Shown piece after piece: positions 1,934 to 13,361 of a stretch of DNA of 35,049 nucleotides. Made by a program: the position numbers and the translations under genes. The DNA is from a virus. The notes below the pieces were generated by a model. It searched no databases. It was not told the DNA's origin and saw nothing but the letters and a program-made list of their open reading frames with translations. The DNA is taken from IMG/VR virus record IMGVR_UViG_3300024346_007811, positions 1 to 35,049 of that record; one strand, given 5' to 3'. The first letter of the stretch is position 1. Every line of letters begins with the position of its first letter.

Positions 1934-2617
1934 TTATCTACTTAGATTATTAACATGTAGTATTGATATATGCTCTACATTAACATGTTTTGGTACTGTT
2001 ATTGACCATTTAATTGCATCGGCAACATCTTCTGGAGTTAAAGAATTAATTCCCCCACGATCACCTCTGCTATCAATATTTCCTGGTGCTATTTCTGTAA
2101 CTCTTATGTTACTTTGAAATAATTCAAATCTTAAAATTTCGGCAAGGGCTACCTCTGCATGTTTTGCAACAGTATAGCTACTTCCTCCACGATATACGTA
2201 ATGACCCGCCATAGAAGTTATGAGGACAACATTTCCTCCGCCATTGCTAATCATAATTGGAGCAATTTGTTTTGTAAGATTTACTGCACCAATTACATTT
2301 AGGTCAAAAGCTTTTGTCCAGTTTTCAATATCATCATCGAGTATGCTATTTGGAAGATTAAATCCTCCGCCTGCATTGTTTACAAGTGCTACTATATTTC
2401 TTCCAGCCAAGTTCTGGCAAAAATCATATACCTGATCTGCTTTTGTTATGTCTACTGCATAGACTTCAATATTTTCATTTTTAATGGTATTAAGCTGATC
2501 GATATCTCTAGCAATTCCTATTACATGATATCCGCTTTCAGATAAAAGCTTAGCGGTTGACTTTCCAACACCGTAGGACGCACCTGTTACAATAACTATA
2601 GGGTTTTCATTTTCCAT
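1934..2617 (-). CDS. Short-chain dehydrogenase/reductase (classical SDR)
   Basis: This 227-aa NAD(P)-dependent oxidoreductase has every classical SDR signature. These are the TGASYGVG cofactor loop (11-18), VDIT (55-58), NNAG (80-83) and the catalytic tetrad N107, S135, Y148 and K152 (in SYTVAK), followed by APGNIDS. R37 after the second strand suggests NADP preference. It resembles the YdfG-like 3-hydroxyacid or serine dehydrogenase subgroup; the substrate cannot be told from sequence. The length is normal for the family. It is an unusual accessory metabolic gene for a phage. It stands alone after the tRNAs with its own extended -10 promoter and no ribosome binding site, so a leaderless mRNA is predicted. 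Confidence 0.9.
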   Translation of the reverse strand: MENENPIVIVTGASYGVGKSTAKLLSESGYHVIGIARDIDQLNTIKNENIEVYAVDITKADQVYDFCQNLAGRNIVALVNNAGGGFNLPNSILDDDIENWTKAFDLNVIGAVNLTKQIAPIMISNGGGNVVLITSMAGHYVYRGGSSYTVAKHAEVALAEILRFELFQSNIRVTEIAPGNIDSRGDRGGINSLTPEDVADAIKWSITVPKHVNVEHISILHVNNLSR

Positions 2618-2632: not shown

Positions 2633-2646
2633 TTTCTATTTTTGTG

Positions 2647-2717
2647 CTTTGGGTACAGGAATCGGACCTATATTGTCCGTTTCGGAAACGGGTGTCCGAC
2701 CATTAGACGAACCCAAA
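2647..2717 (-). tRNA. tRNA-Arg, anticodon CCG (unusual features)
   Basis: A 71-nt cloverleaf has a perfect 7-bp acceptor (TTTGGGT/ACCCAAA), D arm GTCT/GGAC with GG in the loop, anticodon arm with loop TTCCGAA (anticodon CCG) and T arm ATAGG/CCTGT. The CCA end is not encoded. Oddities are a C-A mismatch at the first anticodon-stem pair and a T-loop that reads TCCGATT, with C at position 55 in place of the usual U. The U1-A72 pair with G73 is a pattern typical of tRNA-Gln. It may be a diverged or re-purposed tRNA. Identity as Arg rests on the anticodon alone. Confidence 0.75.
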
Positions 2718-2751: not shown

Positions 2752-2826
2752 TGGTACCCCTGGCTGGGATCGAACCAGCGACCTACAGATTAGAAGTCTG
2801 TTGCTCTTCCGCTGAGCTACAAAGGT
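2752..2826 (-). tRNA. tRNA-Arg, anticodon TCT
   Basis: A 75-nt tRNA includes an encoded CCA end. The acceptor ACCTTTG pairs with CAGGGGT (with wobble pairs), the D arm is GCTC/GAGC, the anticodon arm is ACAGA/TCTGT with loop CTTCTAA, and the T arm is GCTGG-TTCGATC-CCAGC. The anticodon TCT reads AGA, a codon favoured by AT-rich genomes. A strong promoter ends 8 nt upstream of the first tRNA base. Confidence 0.95.
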
Positions 2827-2834
2827 ATATCATG

Positions 2835-2863
2835 ATTATAGTATTTACTTTAAATATTGTCTA
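2835..2863 (-). promoter_or_regulatory. Promoter of tRNA-Arg(TCT)
   Basis: TAGACA (2858-2863), a 17-nt spacer and TATAAT (2835-2840) on the minus strand end 8 nt before the tRNA. The start point would fall at or 1-2 nt before the mature 5' end. It lies inside the end of the SGNH gene and would also serve the downstream tRNA-Arg(CCG). Confidence 0.7.
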
Positions 2864-3761
2864 TAGCAAATAGATCTGAATAGTGTGCATGAGCATGTGA
2901 ACCCATATGCTCTTGAGGATCTGTGCCAACCTTGAAAAATCTTGGGTCTAAATTCTCAATATCTCTATGGCATTCATTGTAATTATTATCGTAGTCTGGC
3001 TTACTATTTACATAATTTTTAAATCCATAATTATGTTTATCAAAATGAATATTCAATTCGTTATGCCAGCTAGACCATTTAAAATCTATATCTGTCTGTA
3101 AAACATATTGCTCCAGCATTTTTATAGCAATTAAATTTGATCTAAATGGTACCGATGTAGGCATAATTTTTTCAATAGCAATAGGCAGCTTTTCATATTT
3201 TGCCATAGATCTATCCGCATCTGAAACGGTATTTAAAAACTCTCCTATCTTTCCTTGAGAATTTTGTATAAATGTATTTTCATTTGCTGCCTTAATAAAC
3301 TTAAACCTTAAAAAGTCTGGCAACAAAAGTCTTAGATATTTTGGGTGACCGTACGACTCAAAGTATTTAAATACATCTTCTACCATTGCAATTGTGCTGT
3401 TTCCTGGGTATGAAAGATTATTGTAAGACATGTTATTGTTTTTGGCTAACAGGTGAGTCCATGTCAACTCCTCTGGGACTCCGACTCCAAATGATTGGGA
3501 GCACCCAGATGTAAGTAGTTCTGATGACCCAAGCTCTGGTCCTCTGTATCCATGAGAATTAACAGAGTAGTCTACCTTTATCTTGCCCTTGTATGTAAAT
3601 TTTTTATAAGGCGCACCTAAGAATAGCTCTTTAACCATATTATTTTCTCTATACTGAGAGGTAATCAAATCTTCATATAGATCATTTTCTTGCGCCTCAG
3701 ATGTCAATATGCCAAAAAAATCTAGCGGGTATTTATCTTTGTCCCAAACTAATCTTTTCAT
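2850..3761 (-). CDS. SGNH/GDSL-like protein, paralogue of the 6118-7140 gene
   Basis: This 303-aa protein has SGNH-type blocks: a nucleophile loop GCSQSFG (G86-C87-S88), a glycine-asparagine block SYPGNS (G120, N121) and a C-terminal His cluster GSHAHAHYSDLF (H289, H291, H293). Family members hydrolyse or transfer acyl groups on esters and glycans; the substrate here is unknown. It aligns by eye with the protein at 6118-7140 across GCSxxxGxGxPxExT, GxPKxxxxLxPDFxRF and DFxWSxW, so the two are diverged duplicates. The aspartate of the canonical D-x-x-H block is not obvious. The start has a TAGGAG site and lies directly after tRNA-Met, probably on the same transcript. There is no signal peptide. 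Confidence 0.7.
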   Translation of the reverse strand: MKRLVWDKDKYPLDFFGILTSEAQENDLYEDLITSQYRENNMVKELFLGAPYKKFTYKGKIKVDYSVNSHGYRGPELGSSELLTSGCSQSFGVGVPEELTWTHLLAKNNNMSYNNLSYPGNSTIAMVEDVFKYFESYGHPKYLRLLLPDFLRFKFIKAANENTFIQNSQGKIGEFLNTVSDADRSMAKYEKLPIAIEKIMPTSVPFRSNLIAIKMLEQYVLQTDIDFKWSSWHNELNIHFDKHNYGFKNYVNSKPDYDNNYNECHRDIENLDPRFFKVGTDPQEHMGSHAHAHYSDLFAIDNI

Positions 3762-3774
3762 TTAATCTCCTATG

Positions 3775-3848
3775 TGTGCCAGGTAGGACTTGAACCTACG
3801 ATTACCGAATTATGAGTTCGGGGCTTTAACCAACTAAGCTACTGGCAC
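3775..3848 (-). tRNA. tRNA-Met (or Ile2), anticodon CAT
   Basis: A 74-nt tRNA has a perfect acceptor GTGCCAG/CTGGCAC, discriminator A, anticodon arm CCGAA/TTCGG with loop CTCATAA, and T arm GTAGG-TTCAAGT-CCTAC. CCA is not encoded. The paired G1-C72 excludes an initiator tRNA. With a CAT anticodon it could be elongator Met, or an isoleucine tRNA whose C34 is converted to lysidine; sequence alone does not decide. A consensus-like promoter ends 8 nt upstream. Confidence 0.93.
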
Positions 3849-3856
3849 CTAGTTGA

Positions 3857-3885
3857 ATTATACTTTTATTATTTAATATCGTCAA
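3857..3885 (-). promoter_or_regulatory. Promoter of tRNA-Met
   Basis: TTGACG (3880-3885), a 17-nt spacer and TATAAT (3857-3862) on the minus strand end 8 nt before the tRNA. This is one of the best sigma70-type matches in the window. The -35 box is inside the last codons of the SGNH gene at 3869. The geometry is identical to the tRNA-Arg promoter. Confidence 0.75.
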
Positions 3886-4630
3886 TAGATAGTTCGTTAG
3901 CCAAATAGTTTACGATTGGTTCGTAGTATTCTTGTTTCATATGATCATTTAACAATATATTGATTGGCTTTTTTGGCTGCTTGTATGGCTCTATCATATC
4001 GTCACCCAGGATGTTTCTTGTATTTATAGGCTCAGGAAGACCACGCTCTAAGCATTGTTTTTTTAGTTCATCTATAAACAACAGATGCTGTTCATGCCTC
4101 CGCTCAAATTCAATATCTGGATCACTTCTATTTTCTACCCATCCATTTGTAATAAAACAAATAAATTGAGGCAATGGCTCCATGAATACAACTTCACATT
4201 TATTAAATTTCTTTAACACATTATCAATGTATTTCGAAACAACTTCTTTTGCTCCAAGGTAGCCTGGCAAATCTGTCTGTGGGAGCCAGTTTCTTATGTC
4301 TATGTAGCCTAGCCATGGGACAACTATCCTGCCTGCCTCATTCCATTCATCTAGCTGTCTCTTTTGTGTACCGCTTGCAAAATTTTCAAAATCAAAGTTT
4401 AGCGCAGACCTCCCTGGATGTGATGACATCCATAGCTGGAGGCCTTTATCTTCATGAGTTTTTAAATAATCTTTTAGCCATATGTCCCTACCATCTTCAA
4501 CAATATGAGTCACATAATTTTGTTCTGAATATTGATAGTCTAGCTTTCTATTTTGTAGAAAAAAAATATCAGGAACACAGTTTCCTATTTTAGATGTATG
4601 AGAGTCTCCTATTACTAATATCTTTTTCAT
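3869..4630 (-). CDS. SGNH-fold protein (GDSH type), carbamoyltransferase partner
   Basis: This 253-aa protein opens with KKILVIGDSHTSKIG, the block-I motif of SGNH hydrolases and acyltransferase partners (G8-D9-S10-H11). A VPWLGYIDIRN segment may be the third block, and LLNDHMKQEYYEPI near the C-terminus could supply the catalytic His. It belongs to a different SGNH branch from the two flanking paralogues. Its ATG lies 2 nt after the stop of the carbamoyltransferase, so the two are co-translated and likely act in one pathway. A role in adding or removing a group on a sugar or other small ligand is inferred. There is no signal peptide or membrane segment. Confidence 0.7.
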   Translation of the reverse strand: MKKILVIGDSHTSKIGNCVPDIFFLQNRKLDYQYSEQNYVTHIVEDGRDIWLKDYLKTHEDKGLQLWMSSHPGRSALNFDFENFASGTQKRQLDEWNEAGRIVVPWLGYIDIRNWLPQTDLPGYLGAKEVVSKYIDNVLKKFNKCEVVFMEPLPQFICFITNGWVENRSDPDIEFERRHEQHLLFIDELKKQCLERGLPEPINTRNILGDDMIEPYKQPKKPINILLNDHMKQEYYEPIVNYLANELSIDDIK

Positions 4631-4632
4631 AT

Positions 4633-6054
4633 TTATCTAATTACCTTTGTGTTATACATAGATTCCCAATCTTTAATATCATTTTCATCGTTAAGTAGTG
4701 GCTGACCTTTTATATTTAGGCTTGTATTTAAAAGAACTGGAACCCCAGTCTGCAGATAGAATTTATTTAAAACTCTCCAAAGGCCTCTGTGCTGATCCTT
4801 ATTTACAGTTTGAACTCTTGATGTGCCATCTATATGAACAACAGAAGGAATCTTTTCTGGCTGCAAACACTTTACAGTGTATTGCATGTAAGGAGATGTA
4901 AAGTCCATTTCAAACCATTTAGACGCACACTCTTCCATAACAACTGGTGCAAACGGCCTAAACAGCTCACGCTGTTTGATATTGTTTACTTTATCCTTAA
5001 TGCTTCTATCTCTTGGATCCGCTAGTATACTTCTGTTTCCTAATGCTCTGGGTCCATATTCAGCTCTTCCACTTGCAACTGCTACAATTCCATCTTTAAG
5101 TATGCCGTCAATTATTTTTTGAACTGGATATTCCCCGCCAAGATCGTGGCCAAGGTAAGGATCTTTCCATTCAATATGTTTTCCATACATTGCTGCTGCT
5201 GCTCCTAACGAGCTTCCAGCATCCCCAGGGTTTGGCATAATCCAAATCATATCAAAGATTTTCCATAGCAGAGTATTTGCTGAAGAGTTTAGAGCGCATC
5301 CACCCATGAACACCAAGTTATTTTTGCCAGTTAGCGACTTTGCCATACGCATAAAATCGTTAAGTCTTTGTTCGTAAACTATTTGTGCTGCGGCTGCAAT
5401 GTCAAACTTATCTTCTTCTGAAACCCAGCCCCAATCTGTGATTCCTTTATGAAAATTATATTTTTGGCTAGTATATGAAGGGAAATAGTCGTTAACCTTT
5501 TTATAGTATTTGGTCCAATCTCCGTATGCGGCCATGCCCATCATAATATATTCTTCCTGGTTTGGCATTAGCCCTATTAGCTGAGTAAATGCCGAATAGA
5601 ATAATCCAAAACTAACTGGGTAGTTTTGCTTATACTTTAGTTTAATCTTATCACTTTCGCCAGTCCATATTGTAGAAGTGTTATATTCTCCTATGGCATC
5701 TAGAACCACTATAGCGGCATCGTTAAATGAACTCGTGTAATATCCTGCTGATGCATGGGAGTAGTGGTGGCCAAATGATTTACGGGGTATCCCGTCGATC
5801 TTAAACCTTGGGTTCCATTCACCTGAACCACCTCTTACAAGCAGCCTAGAGGCCTTCAGAAGGGGTTTCTCGTAGTAGGCTACAGCATCAGGTAGGCCGT
5901 AAGACAAAGCATCATTAACTAAACTATCATTGATATACCAATCATTTTTTTGCTTGCTATATCTCTCTGCATGACCTGCAAATAATACCTTTCCGTCCTC
6001 TATTAAAGACACGGAGGCATCATGAGATGTCTCATTAATTCCTAATATTCTCAT
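4633..6054 (-). CDS. NodU/CmcH/TobZ-family O-carbamoyltransferase
   Basis: This 473-aa enzyme is predicted to transfer a carbamoyl group from carbamoyl phosphate, via carbamoyl-adenylate, to a hydroxyl of a sugar or nucleoside. The N-terminal Kae1-like domain has GINETSHDAS (H11), HAERYSKQK, GHHYSHASAGYY (H96, H97, H100) and VVLDAIGE (D119), matching the metal and catalytic positions of TobZ. GGCALN, EYGPRALGNRSIL and LFRPFAPVV mark the YrdC-like half, and it ends shortly after LLNTSLN. It is shorter than the usual 540-600 residues, mostly by loss of the C-terminal tail. It starts at 6054 after an AT-rich leader with only a weak ribosome binding site. The acceptor is unknown. Confidence 0.92.
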   Translation of the reverse strand: MRILGINETSHDASVSLIEDGKVLFAGHAERYSKQKNDWYINDSLVNDALSYGLPDAVAYYEKPLLKASRLLVRGGSGEWNPRFKIDGIPRKSFGHHYSHASAGYYTSSFNDAAIVVLDAIGEYNTSTIWTGESDKIKLKYKQNYPVSFGLFYSAFTQLIGLMPNQEEYIMMGMAAYGDWTKYYKKVNDYFPSYTSQKYNFHKGITDWGWVSEEDKFDIAAAAQIVYEQRLNDFMRMAKSLTGKNNLVFMGGCALNSSANTLLWKIFDMIWIMPNPGDAGSSLGAAAAMYGKHIEWKDPYLGHDLGGEYPVQKIIDGILKDGIVAVASGRAEYGPRALGNRSILADPRDRSIKDKVNNIKQRELFRPFAPVVMEECASKWFEMDFTSPYMQYTVKCLQPEKIPSVVHIDGTSRVQTVNKDQHRGLWRVLNKFYLQTGVPVLLNTSLNIKGQPLLNDENDIKDWESMYNTKVIR

Positions 6055-6117
6055 TAGTATATAAACCTATTCTTTTTTTTCTTTTTAAATTTTTGAATTA
6101 TTTTATATATGTAATAT

Positions 6118-7140
6118 TTAATTACTATCACGATTTAGGACTCCTTTTAAGTAATTTAAAAAAGTTTCAGCGTAATGCAGATGTCTATGATGACCAAAAT
6201 GTGAGTGTTCTATACCTTTTTCTCTATCAAGAGCTACGTGAAAACTTGTGCTGTTGTTTTTATCTTCGTGACAATTTATTTTATTTTTTGTTTCTGGATC
6301 ATGCAGGATGTCCAAATCTCCAGAGACAGACCAATTTTCTGGGCTACAGCTAATATAATTTTCAAAGTTTATTTTTTTAATAAGCTCATTAGTAGTAGTA
6401 TCCCATGTGCTCCAAACAAAATCTATACCAGCTGCCTTACAATAAAGAGACAGCATATCTATATACTGAGCGGCGTACATGTGTGAAATTTCTTCAGTAA
6501 TAACATCATTTGCGATCAGAGGTCTCTTATATATTCCTTTTGGGTTTTGTTCTGCAGAAACTGTTGTACTATTTTTAATCATAAAATTCATATACTCTTT
6601 AGTTCTAAAATCATTTTCAGATTGAGTATTTGCCCATACAAAAGTCTTTTCATCATAAGAATCAAAAAATGATTGTGACGCAAGCAAAGCTTGATTATTA
6701 AATGTAAGGAATCTATTAAAGTCTGGGAACAATGCTACTATTTTTTTAGGGTTTCCAAATTCATTTATATAAGAAAAAATTTTACTTATCTGTCCAGGGA
6801 TGCTGTCACCGTATCTTGCAACAGAGTTATACTCTACATGCAAATTATTACTTAATATGTAAGGCATTGTTTCTTCTATTGGTAGCCCTAGTCCTGAAGC
6901 TACTGAGCATCCAGCAAATAATAGATCTATATCTTTTTTAAATTTAGGTGATCTAAATCCATACTCGTTATATTCGCATATGGAGCCGAACTCCATCCTC
7001 TTCCATCCACCGTTCTTTATAAGATTTAATTTATTCTTATATATATCAGACTCTATCCCTGGATAGTAGTATACAGACTTTGATGCCTTTTCATTAACAA
7101 TTGATTCGGCAAGGCTGCTTGAAGTAAATTTAGCTTTCAT
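6118..7140 (-). CDS. SGNH/GDSL-like protein, paralogue of the 2850-3761 gene
   Basis: This 340-aa protein has the GCSVASGLGLP nucleophile loop (G77-C78-S79), RYGDSIPGQ (110-118), PDFNRF, DFVWSTWD and a C-terminal His cluster GHHRHLHYAETF (H317, H318, H320, H322). It matches the 2850-3761 product along most of its length but has a longer middle region. A hydrolase or acyltransferase role is inferred from the SGNH pattern only. The start lies inside the end of the upstream zinc-ribbon gene (11-nt overlap), so it is translationally coupled to the terminase operon. The 63-nt gap between its start-distal end and the carbamoyltransferase is a poly-A/T leader with no clear promoter. Confidence 0.68.
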   Translation of the reverse strand: MKAKFTSSSLAESIVNEKASKSVYYYPGIESDIYKNKLNLIKNGGWKRMEFGSICEYNEYGFRSPKFKKDIDLLFAGCSVASGLGLPIEETMPYILSNNLHVEYNSVARYGDSIPGQISKIFSYINEFGNPKKIVALFPDFNRFLTFNNQALLASQSFFDSYDEKTFVWANTQSENDFRTKEYMNFMIKNSTTVSAEQNPKGIYKRPLIANDVITEEISHMYAAQYIDMLSLYCKAAGIDFVWSTWDTTTNELIKKINFENYISCSPENWSVSGDLDILHDPETKNKINCHEDKNNSTSFHVALDREKGIEHSHFGHHRHLHYAETFLNYLKGVLNRDSN

Positions 7141-7369
7141 TTTTGGATATACCAGATTCTACAATCTGCTGAACATACTCTGAAAAATGTTTTCTAATTG
7201 CTCCCATGGGTCTTGATCCAAATGCCTCCCATAATCTTTTATACTCTATTATATTTTGTAGTGTAGTTGGGCAAACCACAATACCATTGTATGATTTCAT
7301 TACAATTGGAAGAGGTACGTGTTTACTGCAACACTTACATTCTTTGGCTAGCTCTTGATATTCGCTCAT
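7130..7369 (-). CDS. Small Cys-rich (zinc-ribbon-like) protein after terminase
   Basis: This 79-aa protein has C11, C13, C14 (KECKCCSKH) and C33 (VVCPTT), which together could bind one zinc. The rest is a charged helical region ending QQIVESG. I do not recognise a family. Its ATG overlaps the terminase stop as ATGA and its end overlaps the next SGNH gene by 11 nt. It is therefore tightly linked to both DNA packaging and the accessory cassette. Confidence 0.75.
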   Translation of the reverse strand: MSEYQELAKECKCCSKHVPLPIVMKSYNGIVVCPTTLQNIIEYKRLWEAFGSRPMGAIRKHFSEYVQQIVESGISKNES

Positions 7370-9168
7370 ATTATTTGCATCCTGTCCATTGCTTCTCTTA
7401 AGTCCTGGGGCATTCTTGGTGCCCTGATCAGATTATAGGATGTTGTATCTGGGTCATCCTTGTCCCCAAAGTCATTGTCATAGCTCATTGATTCATAAGT
7501 ATGTACATTTATTTCTTGATTATTATCAAATCTAGTTCTACTAATTGAATTAAATATAGCTCCACAAGTAGCATCCGCCAAGTCTTTTGACCCCTTTCTA
7601 GGGTGGTCAACCTTGTCTCTCATGATTCTAAGTTGACATAGTTCATCTATAAGCAATGGTATGTGCGGCCCTATTAGTCTTTCTTCCGCCACAATCATTG
7701 CCATATCATCATAGTGTTTTTTAGCGACAGACAGAATCTCTGTATTGATGCCATATTGTTTTAGTTGTTGCATCATATCATGAGAGTTCCATCTGTCAAA
7801 AGTACATATTGCTATATTAAAGCCTCTAGTTTTAAGAGAAAGAATGTAGTCTTTAACTTCTGTAAAGTCAACAGACTTGTCTGGTGTAGGAGTCCAATAT
7901 CTAACTGCGTCTATCTCTACAATAGGGGCGGGCTGTGAGTATGTATCTGTTACCTTTACGTTAACCCATTTGTTTACATGAGCCATCGTTACTGCACAAT
8001 GGTCATGCTTCTGTGCCAAGTCTACGTGTATATAATATTTTTTATCTGGGTCTGGCAAAAACCACTCTTCAAGTCTGCCGAAGTTGTCTACGGCAATTGC
8101 TCCCACATTAAATGCTTTTTCTACTTTTTCTCTTGACTTAAAGAATGCGTCAATTGCGTCTGGTGGCATGCAAGCAAATCTTGAAAGAGCATCTGTTGGG
8201 TTTGTATAGAAGGCTGTTTTAAAATCGTCAATTTTTCTAACTGGATTAACTTCCCAAGTTGGGCGTTTAAGAGCATAAACTTTAGGTATTTTGTAAGATA
8301 CAATATGATCTTCTTCCCATTGAATCTCAAACTCATTACCTTCAGTTCCATCTGGTAACTCCTCATACATCTTAAATTTGTGATCTCTAATTACAGTTTC
8401 TTTTTCTCCAATTACAGCGTCGTACCTTTGCTGAATATAGTCATTTTTAAATCTAGGGAACGATAGCAAAATAACCTTTCCAAAGTCTGGGAAACGTGAG
8501 TCTACTGATGCCCTATACATATCATACACCGCACTACCTGTTTTTGCTTGATCGTGGCCCGTCGTATTTTCAATTGCAAAGCCAGAAATTTCATCAAGAA
8601 TAACAACAATAACGTTATATCCTTCCCAGGCTTCTCTTTCTGAGTGACCTGAGTGTACTGTTATTGCTTTACTGAATTGAATTTCAGAAGCCTTTGAATA
8701 ATATTTCCCTATAAACCATGGAGACTTATCTATTCTACTTTTAAATCCTTTAAAGAATACATTGTTTGCCTGTTGTGAGTTAATAGCAATATTAATAATA
8801 TCAATAGAATCTCCTGGGGGCTTTCCATAATATGTTGCTGGGTCTTTTAAACACAATAGTAAATATACTATATATGCAACTGCAATTGTTGAGCAGTAAT
8901 CTTTTCCTGAACCTTTGCCAAGTTGTGCAACTACTTCATTTGCTGTCTGCTTAAATCTTATTGCACCTTCGTCTTCTCCAAACAACTTCTTTAGTGTTGA
9001 CTCTTTGTATATCTGAGAGCTTTTTTCAATCAGAAGGTACTGGTATTCTGAAAGAGGTGGTAGTCCTAGATAGTTTGGATCGTTAACAAATGTTCTAAGA
9101 TCAACAGGCTTTTCTTCAAACTCTTCGCCATCTAAAATATCAATTAAATCTGAAAAATCAAACGACAT
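7366..9168 (-). CDS. terL: Terminase large subunit (packaging ATPase and nuclease)
   Basis: The roughly 600-aa packaging motor has a deviant Walker A GKGSGKD (about 84-90), Walker B VVILDE (D192, E193) and a RNase-H-like nuclease domain with HVDLA (D383), TFDRW (D458) and KGSKDLADA (D529, D532). It pumps DNA into the prohead and cuts concatemers. The frame extends to a TTG at 9180, but the ATG at 9168 has GAGGA 5 nt upstream and is preferred. It overlaps the small subunit by 11 nt. Length and motif order are normal for tailed phages. Confidence 0.95.
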   Translation of the reverse strand: MSFDFSDLIDILDGEEFEEKPVDLRTFVNDPNYLGLPPLSEYQYLLIEKSSQIYKESTLKKLFGEDEGAIRFKQTANEVVAQLGKGSGKDYCSTIAVAYIVYLLLCLKDPATYYGKPPGDSIDIINIAINSQQANNVFFKGFKSRIDKSPWFIGKYYSKASEIQFSKAITVHSGHSEREAWEGYNVIVVILDEISGFAIENTTGHDQAKTGSAVYDMYRASVDSRFPDFGKVILLSFPRFKNDYIQQRYDAVIGEKETVIRDHKFKMYEELPDGTEGNEFEIQWEEDHIVSYKIPKVYALKRPTWEVNPVRKIDDFKTAFYTNPTDALSRFACMPPDAIDAFFKSREKVEKAFNVGAIAVDNFGRLEEWFLPDPDKKYYIHVDLAQKHDHCAVTMAHVNKWVNVKVTDTYSQPAPIVEIDAVRYWTPTPDKSVDFTEVKDYILSLKTRGFNIAICTFDRWNSHDMMQQLKQYGINTEILSVAKKHYDDMAMIVAEERLIGPHIPLLIDELCQLRIMRDKVDHPRKGSKDLADATCGAIFNSISRTRFDNNQEINVHTYESMSYDNDFGDKDDPDTTSYNLIRAPRMPQDLREAMDRMQII

Positions 9169-9694
9169 CAGCGTCCTCAATTACAATTGCTTCAACAATT
9201 CCTGTAATCTGAGAAAGTCTTTTTGCAACATCCATTTTGCATTTAGGACAAGATGCGGTTACTTCTTTTAATATGCCAACCAAGATCTCCTGCTTACGCT
9301 CTGTCTCTGCAATCTGAGATGCTATCTGAGTGTTTTCTAACACGCCGATTGACTGTAGCATTGCTATTCTTTTTGTTTCTATATCTGCGATTAACTTTAA
9401 AGCTCCTGCCTTTACGCTTAGCTGGCCCTGTGTGTCTGCATCTTCTACCGTTTTCCAAGCTTCTTTTATCAGCATTGCGTAGTGCTGGTCTGCGCCAGAT
9501 ATGGCCTCTCTTGCACGGTCACGAATATTGCTGTCGTTATGAACAACAGACTTCCATTCATCAACGTACTCTAAAACTTCTTTGCGTGAGAATCCTGTAA
9601 GCGTGGCTATCTGAGTTGCTGAATTGCCCTTTAAAAGCTCTTCCACAACCCTATTCATGCGATCAAAATGTACTGCTGGCTCTATTTCGCTCAT
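9158..9694 (-). CDS. terS: Probable terminase small subunit
   Basis: This 178-aa protein has an N-terminal helix-turn-helix (about 17-48: LLKGNSATQIATLTGFSRKEV), a long charged helical middle (60-140) suited to oligomerisation, and a C-terminal CPKC pair. Its position directly before terL with an overlap supports the role of recognising the packaging site and forming the TerS ring. The sequence itself is not a strong family match. There is no ribosome binding site. An extended -10 box ends 6 nt before the ATG, which predicts a leaderless mRNA and a fresh transcription unit for packaging and everything to its left. Confidence 0.75.
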   Translation of the reverse strand: MSEIEPAVHFDRMNRVVEELLKGNSATQIATLTGFSRKEVLEYVDEWKSVVHNDSNIRDRAREAISGADQHYAMLIKEAWKTVEDADTQGQLSVKAGALKLIADIETKRIAMLQSIGVLENTQIASQIAETERKQEILVGILKEVTASCPKCKMDVAKRLSQITGIVEAIVIEDADVV

Positions 9695-12302: not shown

Positions 12303-12393
12303 TTTTAATCCTCTTGTCCCATTTGTCTATAAATAATCCTAGCGGATAACCCACAGAGAATCCTATCATAATCCCGAAGATTAATCTAGTCAC
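12289..12393 (-). CDS. 34-aa single-pass membrane peptide
   Basis: This GTG-initiated micro-gene was read in the gap. The peptide begins MTRLIFGIMIGFSVGYPLG, one hydrophobic helix, followed by a basic tail DKWDKRIKNDRR. By the positive-inside rule the C-terminus should be cytoplasmic. The GTG overlaps the oxygenase stop as GTGA and the end overlaps the next gene by 14 nt. Function is unknown; it may work with the XapX protein two genes on. Confidence 0.65.
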   Translation of the reverse strand: MTRLIFGIMIGFSVGYPLGLFIDKWDKRIKNDRR

Positions 12394-13361
12394 TGGTTTC
12401 TACCGTCTACATAAATATGATTTTCTTTAGCCACTTCAATTTTAATAGAAGGATTTACATCATGCCATTTTGTTCCTTCAATTCTAACTTCACGATCATA
12501 TATTCCAGTAGAGACCTTTTCTTGAACGTCAGCATCTACAATGCGAAGCCACTCTTCTTCTCCGTATTTTTCAATGCCATCTGCCCATTCTTTTGATCCT
12601 GGGTAATCCCATTGTGCAAAAACTCTAACAAAAACTTTTTTGTTTCCTTCAGTAACAGCTTTTGCCGAATGAAAATATGGCATGCCAGATGGGAAAACAG
12701 TGACATCTCCAACTCCTGGTTTGTAAGTAACGACCTTTGGCACTTCGTCAATTTCGTTTAAGAACTCAACTTCTCCTCCTGTATAATCATCGTTTACATA
12801 AATGGTGATTGTTATAATCTGTTGTGCTCTTGGCTGACCAACTCTATGCTTATGTGCATCTGTATGAAATGTAATTGCAAGATTTTTTTCGGCATGTATA
12901 TCATGCTTTAAAACTTCTATGACAGAGTAATGCATTCTTCCAGCACCCGCTTCATTTAGCTTCCAGTTGTCGATATACTCTGGCCAATATCCAGACTCTG
13001 ACCATTCATTTATATAGTCTTTAAAAACTACAGCGAATATGTCATAAAGCTTTTCTCTAAAGCTATATAAAAATTCAAGATTATCATCACCAATATCTGT
13101 TGGCTTTTGCTTAGAGTTAAAAAATGTCTTTTTGCCAAAGGTGTGCCACGGAACCCACTCATTTATTGGAGAGATGTCTGCCATTTCTTTTGGCAAGACT
13201 CCGTGGTTATCACCTCTTGTAGAAAGCTCTTCGTGTGTTATTTCAAATTGGCTTGTATCATTTTCATAGAGATCCATTAAACTATAAAATCTCTTTAGAT
13301 CTTCCTTGTCAAACATGTCTCTATATATAACAACCTGTGGCATTACTTCGTACTTATTCAT
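12390..13361 (-). CDS. 2OG-Fe(II) oxygenase (prolyl-hydroxylase-like)
   Basis: This 323-aa dioxygenase has a double-stranded beta-helix core with the iron ligands H166 and D168 (TFHTDAH) and H231 (PYFHSAK), plus R246 (VFVRVF) for 2-oxoglutarate. YVNDDYTGGEVEF and PGVGDVTVFPSG are typical of the P4H-like class. The long N-terminal domain (1-130) is not recognised. The substrate may be protein, DNA or a small molecule; it is not of the TET/JBP type as far as I can see. A strong GGGAGG site precedes the start. Such genes are widespread in aquatic phages. It lies amid recombination genes. Confidence 0.88.
   Translation of the reverse strand: MNKYEVMPQVVIYRDMFDKEDLKRFYSLMDLYENDTSQFEITHEELSTRGDNHGVLPKEMADISPINEWVPWHTFGKKTFFNSKQKPTDIGDDNLEFLYSFREKLYDIFAVVFKDYINEWSESGYWPEYIDNWKLNEAGAGRMHYSVIEVLKHDIHAEKNLAITFHTDAHKHRVGQPRAQQIITITIYVNDDYTGGEVEFLNEIDEVPKVVTYKPGVGDVTVFPSGMPYFHSAKAVTEGNKKVFVRVFAQWDYPGSKEWADGIEKYGEEEWLRIVDADVQEKVSTGIYDREVRIEGTKWHDVNPSIKIEVAKENHIYVDGRNQ

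Follow-up and report, generated by a model that had tools for sequence, protein, structure and literature searches.

Of the accessory genes in aquatic phages whose role is unexplained, carbamoyltransferases belong to the more common ones. A 5-hydroxymethylcytosine (5hmC) carbamoyltransferase of uncultured phages has been characterised (MetaGPA, PMC8670742), and thymidylate-synthase homologues were found to co-occur with carbamoyltransferases only in modified contigs (PMC8670742). Here we describe a carbamoyltransferase gene with different partners, encoded in IMG/VR virus record IMGVR_UViG_3300024346_007811, a stretch of 35,049 bases (hereafter the window). In this window, an original prediction made from the letters alone had proposed a modification cassette, in which a NodU/TobZ-type O-carbamoyltransferase (CarbT) is grouped with three SGNH-type proteins (B340, G253 and A303), all encoded on the minus strand. 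We find that CarbT and the family formed by A303 and B340 (the A/B family) have conserved active-site residues and co-occur widely, which upholds the idea of a modification cassette. What is new here is the architecture, in which a constant enzyme is combined with variable partners and one slot undergoes exchange; the enzyme class is not new, and a literature search for the CarbT-SGNH pair in phages found no description. Our preferred reading, put forward tentatively, is that of an exchangeable group-modification cassette of an aquatic actinobacterium phage, which would act on a precursor of the host envelope glycan.

Both carbamoyltransferase domains of CarbT score above their cut-offs (Carbam_trans_N, PF02543, E 8e-32, 111.4 bits against 24; Carbam_trans_C, PF16861, E 3.5e-53, 180.1 bits against 27), and the protein matches phrog_1601 ('Nol-like carbamoyltransferase') at 5e-101. 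Its nearest solved relatives in the PDB are NovN, GdmN and TobZ. The residues H11, H96, H100 and D119, correctly described as intact in the original prediction, do not vary, nor does D278, among nine phage CarbTs as little as 27% identical, and the metal-site residues align with those of NovN. By analogy with the superfamily, CarbT would use carbamoyl phosphate and ATP to carbamoylate a hydroxyl acceptor. With 169.4 of the 1000 bits required by the NCBIfam equivalog NF041651, it does not qualify as a true NodU. Related enzymes occur in 143 INPHARED records, commonly in cyanophages and pelagiphages, at no more than 41% identity, and 568 stretches in IMG/VR encode a CarbT relative; the best 80 of these 568 were kept, all at least 82% identical.

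A303 and B340 are, as proposed, diverged paralogues (28% identity over 274 aa, E 9e-28) that both carry, as judged by eye, the motifs GCSxxxGxGxPxExT, PDFxRF and DFxWSxW and a C-terminal His cluster. A profile built from either protein retrieves the same 144 open reading frames (ORFs), representing 88 distinct proteins. All members of a 64-sequence alignment keep G86, S88, G120 and H285, and 98% keep D281; the block III oxyanion Asn (GxND) is absent, with no conserved Asn at that place and a PDxxR motif instead. Scans of the individual SGNH proteins against Pfam and PHROG gave no usable match (in Pfam none for A303, and none above cut-off for B340 or G253), and tblastn of all three against INPHARED phages returned nothing, even at E 1. 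At the level of the family, three members match Lipase_GDSL (best 1.7e-7) and GDSL esterases of known structure are retrieved by a profile search (best 2e-4). An AlphaFold2 (AF2) model of A303, with a core predicted local distance difference test score (pLDDT) above 90, matches TesA and other GDSL enzymes (E 1e-4, probability 1.0), with modest TM-scores and a disordered stretch inside the model; 37 further matches at E up to 1e-3 come from BFVD, many of them uncultured-phage proteins and several annotated as SGNH. Alignment, Lipase_GDSL matches and structure search together support a predicted SGNH fold for the A/B family, in which the expected Ser and His are invariant but the GxND Asn is missing. 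The assignment is weaker for G253, whose AF2 model (pLDDT 72) matches OatA and GDSL proteins at E 4e-4 to 1e-3 and TM about 0.4-0.6, among unrelated folds. Its Ser10 and His230 are invariant in 14 homologues, the spacing of the Asp is unusual, and no convincing sequence link to the A/B family was found; we therefore classify G253 as an SGNH protein only tentatively. Proteins of 220 aa are encoded near CarbT in some relatives (cluster 19; for example L042:2629-3291), directly after CarbT in four loci. They weakly resemble parts of the A/B family, appear to lack the GCS motif (records G006 and G016), and are possibly degenerate SGNH proteins.

Co-occurrence of the two enzyme types, a check set beforehand, was scored in 105 CarbT loci at >60% identity, which hold 72 distinct CarbT proteins once overlapping loci are de-duplicated by CarbT sequence. 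An A/B SGNH gene lies within 3 kb of CarbT in 58 of the 72 distinct neighbourhoods, extending far beyond the lineage of the window, the co-occurrence that the original prediction had asked to be checked. All 14 others hold a gene of a PF13640 oxygenase cluster or a related oxygenase-like gene, and no neighbourhood has neither. Directly upstream of CarbT on the same strand (72 loci) we found an A/B gene in 41 cases, the PF13640-type oxygenase cluster in 15 and a 221-aa putative oxygenase in 5, and in many loci the upstream gene and CarbT share a few bases. The 221-aa protein (cluster 14) has no significant match in Pfam or NCBIfam, and its putative oxygenase nature comes from a reading of its sequence. 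Strong A/B matches are concentrated around CarbT in 15 longer CarbT records, with 22 of 27 lying within 2.5 kb where 8% would be expected; the effect is large, although the nominal p of 8e-20 is too small given that two record pairs are near-duplicates. Every locus was recovered by way of CarbT or of a close relative of the window cassette, which qualifies the linkage; searches started from three other SGNH variants yielded 10 stretches, almost always on contigs where CarbT had been seen before.

CarbT and its upstream partner differ in how strongly they are conserved. Between phage pairs whose TerL proteins are 95-98% identical, CarbT has a median identity of 83.5%, whereas that of the upstream SGNH protein is 31.5% (range 29-93, 37 pairs); CarbT is still 83.7% identical when TerL falls below 75%. 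The CarbT values have a floor set by keeping only the best 80 loci, which does not explain the contrast with the SGNH proteins. Likewise, each SGNH variant tested has 1-8 close relatives in 2.9 million IMG/VR contigs versus 568 for CarbT, the former counts being lower bounds from a search with exact short peptides. The ratio of non-synonymous to synonymous substitution rates (dN/dS) in close pairs is 0.15 for A/B genes, 0.077 for CarbT and 0.02 for TerL, which argues that the SGNH genes are functional and under constraint rather than in decay. Positive selection on them was tested for and not seen (maximum 0.37), so that their variability comes from divergence and from gene replacement and, in recent pairs, not from runaway selection. 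A point overlooked by the original prediction is that A303 itself occupies a hypervariable slot bounded by tRNA-Met and tRNA-Arg(TCT). This slot contains no SGNH gene in locus L023, one in the window and in L005, and two in L008; in the empty slot of L023 the two tRNAs are 3 nt apart, while CarbT and TerL are 95% and 99.5% identical to those of the window. A constant enzyme joined to a fast-exchanging partner, in phages of abundant aquatic bacteria, offers a handle on what CarbT modifies, as the partner is expected to follow the features that vary in host or virion.

A single-sequence CarbT scan of bacterial genomes found no close relative, and a profile scan of cellular genomes found 80 more distant CarbTs, three at 43-47% identity (from two metagenome-assembled genomes and a Plantactinospora) and the rest at 30-35%. 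When the A/B profile was run over the flanks of the cellular CarbTs, it identified 11 SGNH genes, 10 of them within 600 bp of CarbT compared with 19% of comparable genes (p 6e-7), and some of these proteins match the ALGX (AlgX) and GDSL families. As SGNH genes stand beside CarbT in bacteria and archaea, the pairing is wider than these phages. Some of the cellular CarbT-SGNH loci also hold genes that by eye are of glycosyltransferase or nucleotide-sugar type.

We consider a host envelope-glycan precursor the most likely acceptor, as it fits best with the variability of the SGNH proteins and the cellular CarbT-SGNH pairing; an envelope glycan would vary between host strains, which would account for SGNH proteins that vary beside a CarbT that does not. 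CarbT would form the constant part of the cassette, and the SGNH proteins the variable part, acting as O-acyl esterases or acyltransferases on the same acceptor. In relatives, a 2-oxoglutarate- and Fe-dependent (2OG-Fe) oxygenase can take the slot next to CarbT. Since SGNH enzyme and oxygenase alternate beside a constant CarbT, we infer that either enzyme readies or modifies the hydroxyl to be capped; in the simplest common role, an esterase would free, or an oxygenase create, a hydroxyl that CarbT then carbamoylates. The decorated glycan could alter the receptor for incoming or released phage, and an answer on the acceptor would also explain the cellular pairing. Several points weigh against this proposal. 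Neither the window nor a longer, 67-kb copy of the phage yielded a recognisable glycosyltransferase (no PF11397 match; otherwise by eye only). The cassette proteins have no obvious signal peptides by eye, so that only cytoplasmic precursors would be within reach. The genes are flanked by those for packaging (TerL) and lysis (CHAP); this order points to late expression, which agrees poorly with superinfection exclusion. Finally, G253 and the A/B proteins are without the usual GxND oxyanion Asn motif and the Asp-His spacing of the A/B family is unlike the classical DxxH, for which reasons hydrolase activity should not be assumed.

The explanation that competes best places the decoration on the virion, which we regard as possible though on balance unlikely. 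Oxygenases would hydroxylate a virion protein, a GlcNAc-type transferase would glycosylate it in some phages, CarbT would carbamoylate the sugar or hydroxyl, and the SGNH proteins would add or trim acyl groups, their variability mirroring a changing virion surface chemistry. Besides the PF13640-type genes upstream of CarbT noted above, a PF13640 oxygenase adjoins CarbT in 5 of 16 long records, and 2OG-Fe oxygenases adjoin the CarbTs of Pelagibacter phage HTVC008M and cyanophage S-SSM7. PF11397 GlcNAc-transferase matches occur in 7 of 20 records, near CarbT in three of them (G008, G010 and G013), and the position between terminase and endolysin genes would suit a late function. Yet the phage of the window has no PF11397 match, the cassette lies outside any tail or head module, and no acceptor motif is known. 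A 277-aa putative glycosyltransferase beside CarbT in relatives has no match in Pfam (at 0.01), NCBIfam or the PDB; one member of a mixed protein set that was scanned gave a weak PF11397 match (0.005). The window itself encodes a 2OG-Fe oxygenase at 12390-13361, which the original prediction had overlooked, and more are present in the longer phage copy. In that 67-kb record four PF13640 matches exceed the cut-off, and related 115-kb phages have up to 13. Rather doubtful, in our estimate, is a broader scheme of combinatorial editing of the host surface or the virion, in which a constant carbamoyl cap would be combined with interchangeable SGNH or 2OG-Fe enzymes that would create or expose the hydroxyl and be swapped between phages at tRNA-marked slots, following the glycans of aquatic actinobacteria as these vary.

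CarbT and the SGNH genes could also share no pathway and be unconnected accessory genes that accumulated where recombination is frequent and tRNAs mark the site. The A303 slot, bounded by tRNAs and holding zero to two copies, and the widely differing neighbours between phages are consistent with this view, which we nevertheless hold to be improbable: A/B genes crowd around CarbT far in excess of expectation, start-stop overlaps with CarbT are frequent, and the pairing recurs in unrelated bacteria and archaea.

Less probable again is hypermodification of phage DNA, in which CarbT would carbamoylate a hydroxymethylated base. Besides the precedent of the phage-derived 5hmC enzyme, this explanation can draw on CarbT-adjacent oxygenases in relatives that give weak Tet_JBP matches of up to 24.8 bits; all of these are under the 34.9-bit cut-off and could reflect overlap with PF13640. 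DNA modification, one option of the original prediction, is disfavoured because the 16 related phage records, some of them fragments, contain no homologue of thymidylate synthase or hydroxymethylase and no TET/JBP match above cut-off. To our knowledge, SGNH enzymes are not part of known DNA pathways. The restriction of thymidylate-synthase and carbamoyltransferase co-occurrence to modified contigs (PMC8670742) speaks against this explanation as well.

A further reading, in which the cassette tailors a small molecule or peptide produced in infected cells, is very improbable. Several characterised superfamily members tailor antibiotics, and in Plantactinospora endophytica (region L127:962-9464) the 43% identical CarbT has a class III lanthipeptide-synthetase-like gene with RamC_N, kinase and LanC domains at a distance of about 4 kb, possibly in a carbamoylated peptide pathway. 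This is a single cellular neighbourhood, however, and neither the window nor the longer copy revealed a biosynthetic core gene.

The features of the region are collected in Table 1. The order on the minus strand is TerS, TerL, a 79-aa ORF, B340, CarbT, G253, tRNA-Met, A303, two tRNA-Arg, an oxidoreductase of the short-chain dehydrogenase/reductase (SDR) family and a CHAP endolysin. The coordinates in the original prediction proved exact, including the 2-nt gap between CarbT and G253; B340 and CarbT are 63 nt apart. The succession of TerL and the 79-aa ORF is conserved in many relatives. The tRNAs had been taken to mark the far end of the cassette, which applies to the two tRNA-Arg beyond A303 but not to tRNA-Met, located between G253 and A303 and thus inside the cassette. 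The predicted tRNA promoters were recovered as near-consensus, sigma-70-like candidates before tRNA-Met and tRNA-Arg, while across the region as a whole such matches show no excess over shuffles. The SDR oxidoreductase is kept with A303, by synteny, mainly in the lineage of the window, and its membership of the cassette is uncertain.

Table 1. Positions of the cassette genes and adjacent features in the window.
Feature	Position	Strand	Description
CarbT	4633-6054	-	473-aa O-carbamoyltransferase, NodU/TobZ/GdmN superfamily; constant cassette member
B340	6118-7140	-	A/B-family SGNH (predicted fold), variable slot upstream of CarbT; Ser79, Asp305 and His314 at conserved positions
G253	3869-4630	-	GDSH-type SGNH-like protein (tentative) following CarbT; Ser10 and His230 as in homologues
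A303	2850-3761	-	A/B-family SGNH (predicted fold) in tRNA-Met/tRNA-Arg slot; Ser88, Asp281, His285
tRNA-Met(CAT)	3774-3848	-	ARAGORN; within cassette, upstream edge of A303 slot; conserved in related loci
tRNA-Arg(TCT)	2752-2826	-	ARAGORN; downstream edge of A303 slot
tRNA-Arg(CCG)	2646-2717	-	ARAGORN
Candidate promoter before tRNA-Met	3857-3885	-	TTGACG-17-TATAAT; 11/12 consensus match
Candidate promoter before tRNA-Arg	2835-2863	-	TAGACA-17-TATAAT; 11/12 consensus match
SDR-family oxidoreductase	1934-2617	-	After A303 slot; PF00106, 4e-38; synteny
79-aa ORF	7130-7369	-	Overlapping reading frames join TerL (7366-9180) to B340

In the 67-kb IMG/VR record the cassette is 100% identical, and the record extends about 32 kb beyond the left end of the window. 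It encodes a WhiB-like protein (L114:11359-11670, Pfam E 5e-11); WhiB serves in the literature to recognise freshwater actinophages (PMC6802176), so an aquatic actinobacterium is the probable host. A WhiB-like cluster, read by eye, is present in 24 of the 72 related CarbT neighbourhoods. Other genes recur near CarbT. A putative fusion of APS-kinase-like and cytidylyltransferase-like parts is found in 31 of the 72 neighbourhoods (for example L076:6679-7440), with a split version upstream of CarbT in L125. Genes read from their sequence as AhpD-like and AhpC-like (peroxiredoxin) adjoin in the longer copy (L114:2349-3397), and genes resembling them lie near CarbT in nine relatives (clusters 26 and 27). 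Putative secreted, subtilase-like proteins with signal-peptide-like starts are encoded at L114:7400-8533 and L061:2738-3619, one such cluster being present in 21 of the 72 neighbourhoods.

In comparison with known systems, CarbT agrees with the NodU/TobZ/NovN/GdmN superfamily in both domains, in its invariant metal-site residues and in the GRxExGPRALGNRS motif, and is shorter (473 aa) than the PDB chains it matches (576-702 aa). With TesA, AlgX and OatA the A/B family shares the predicted fold, the block I Ser, the block II Gly and the C-terminal Asp and His, whereas it has GCS in place of GDS, no GxND, a longer Asp-His spacing and an extra His cluster. Unlike the SGNH deacetylases of virions, which are found in tail fibres and spikes, A303 and B340 are free-standing and encoded between the TerL and endolysin genes; a role as tail-spike deacetylases was set aside because they are free-standing and lie outside the tail module. 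A tail-fibre PHROG is matched by only 3 of 64 A/B members. The cellular CarbT-SGNH pairs likewise have an SGNH gene close to CarbT, but their SGNH proteins are mostly 380-430 aa long (one of 676 aa), often with a hydrophobic N-terminus as judged by eye, while the A/B proteins of phages measure about 250-350 aa and show no such N-terminus. The 5hmC carbamoyltransferase (PMC8670742), which uses carbamoyl phosphate and ATP, belongs to the same superfamily and is likewise phage-associated; it pairs with a thymidylate-synthase homologue, whereas CarbT pairs with SGNH proteins or 2OG-Fe oxygenases.

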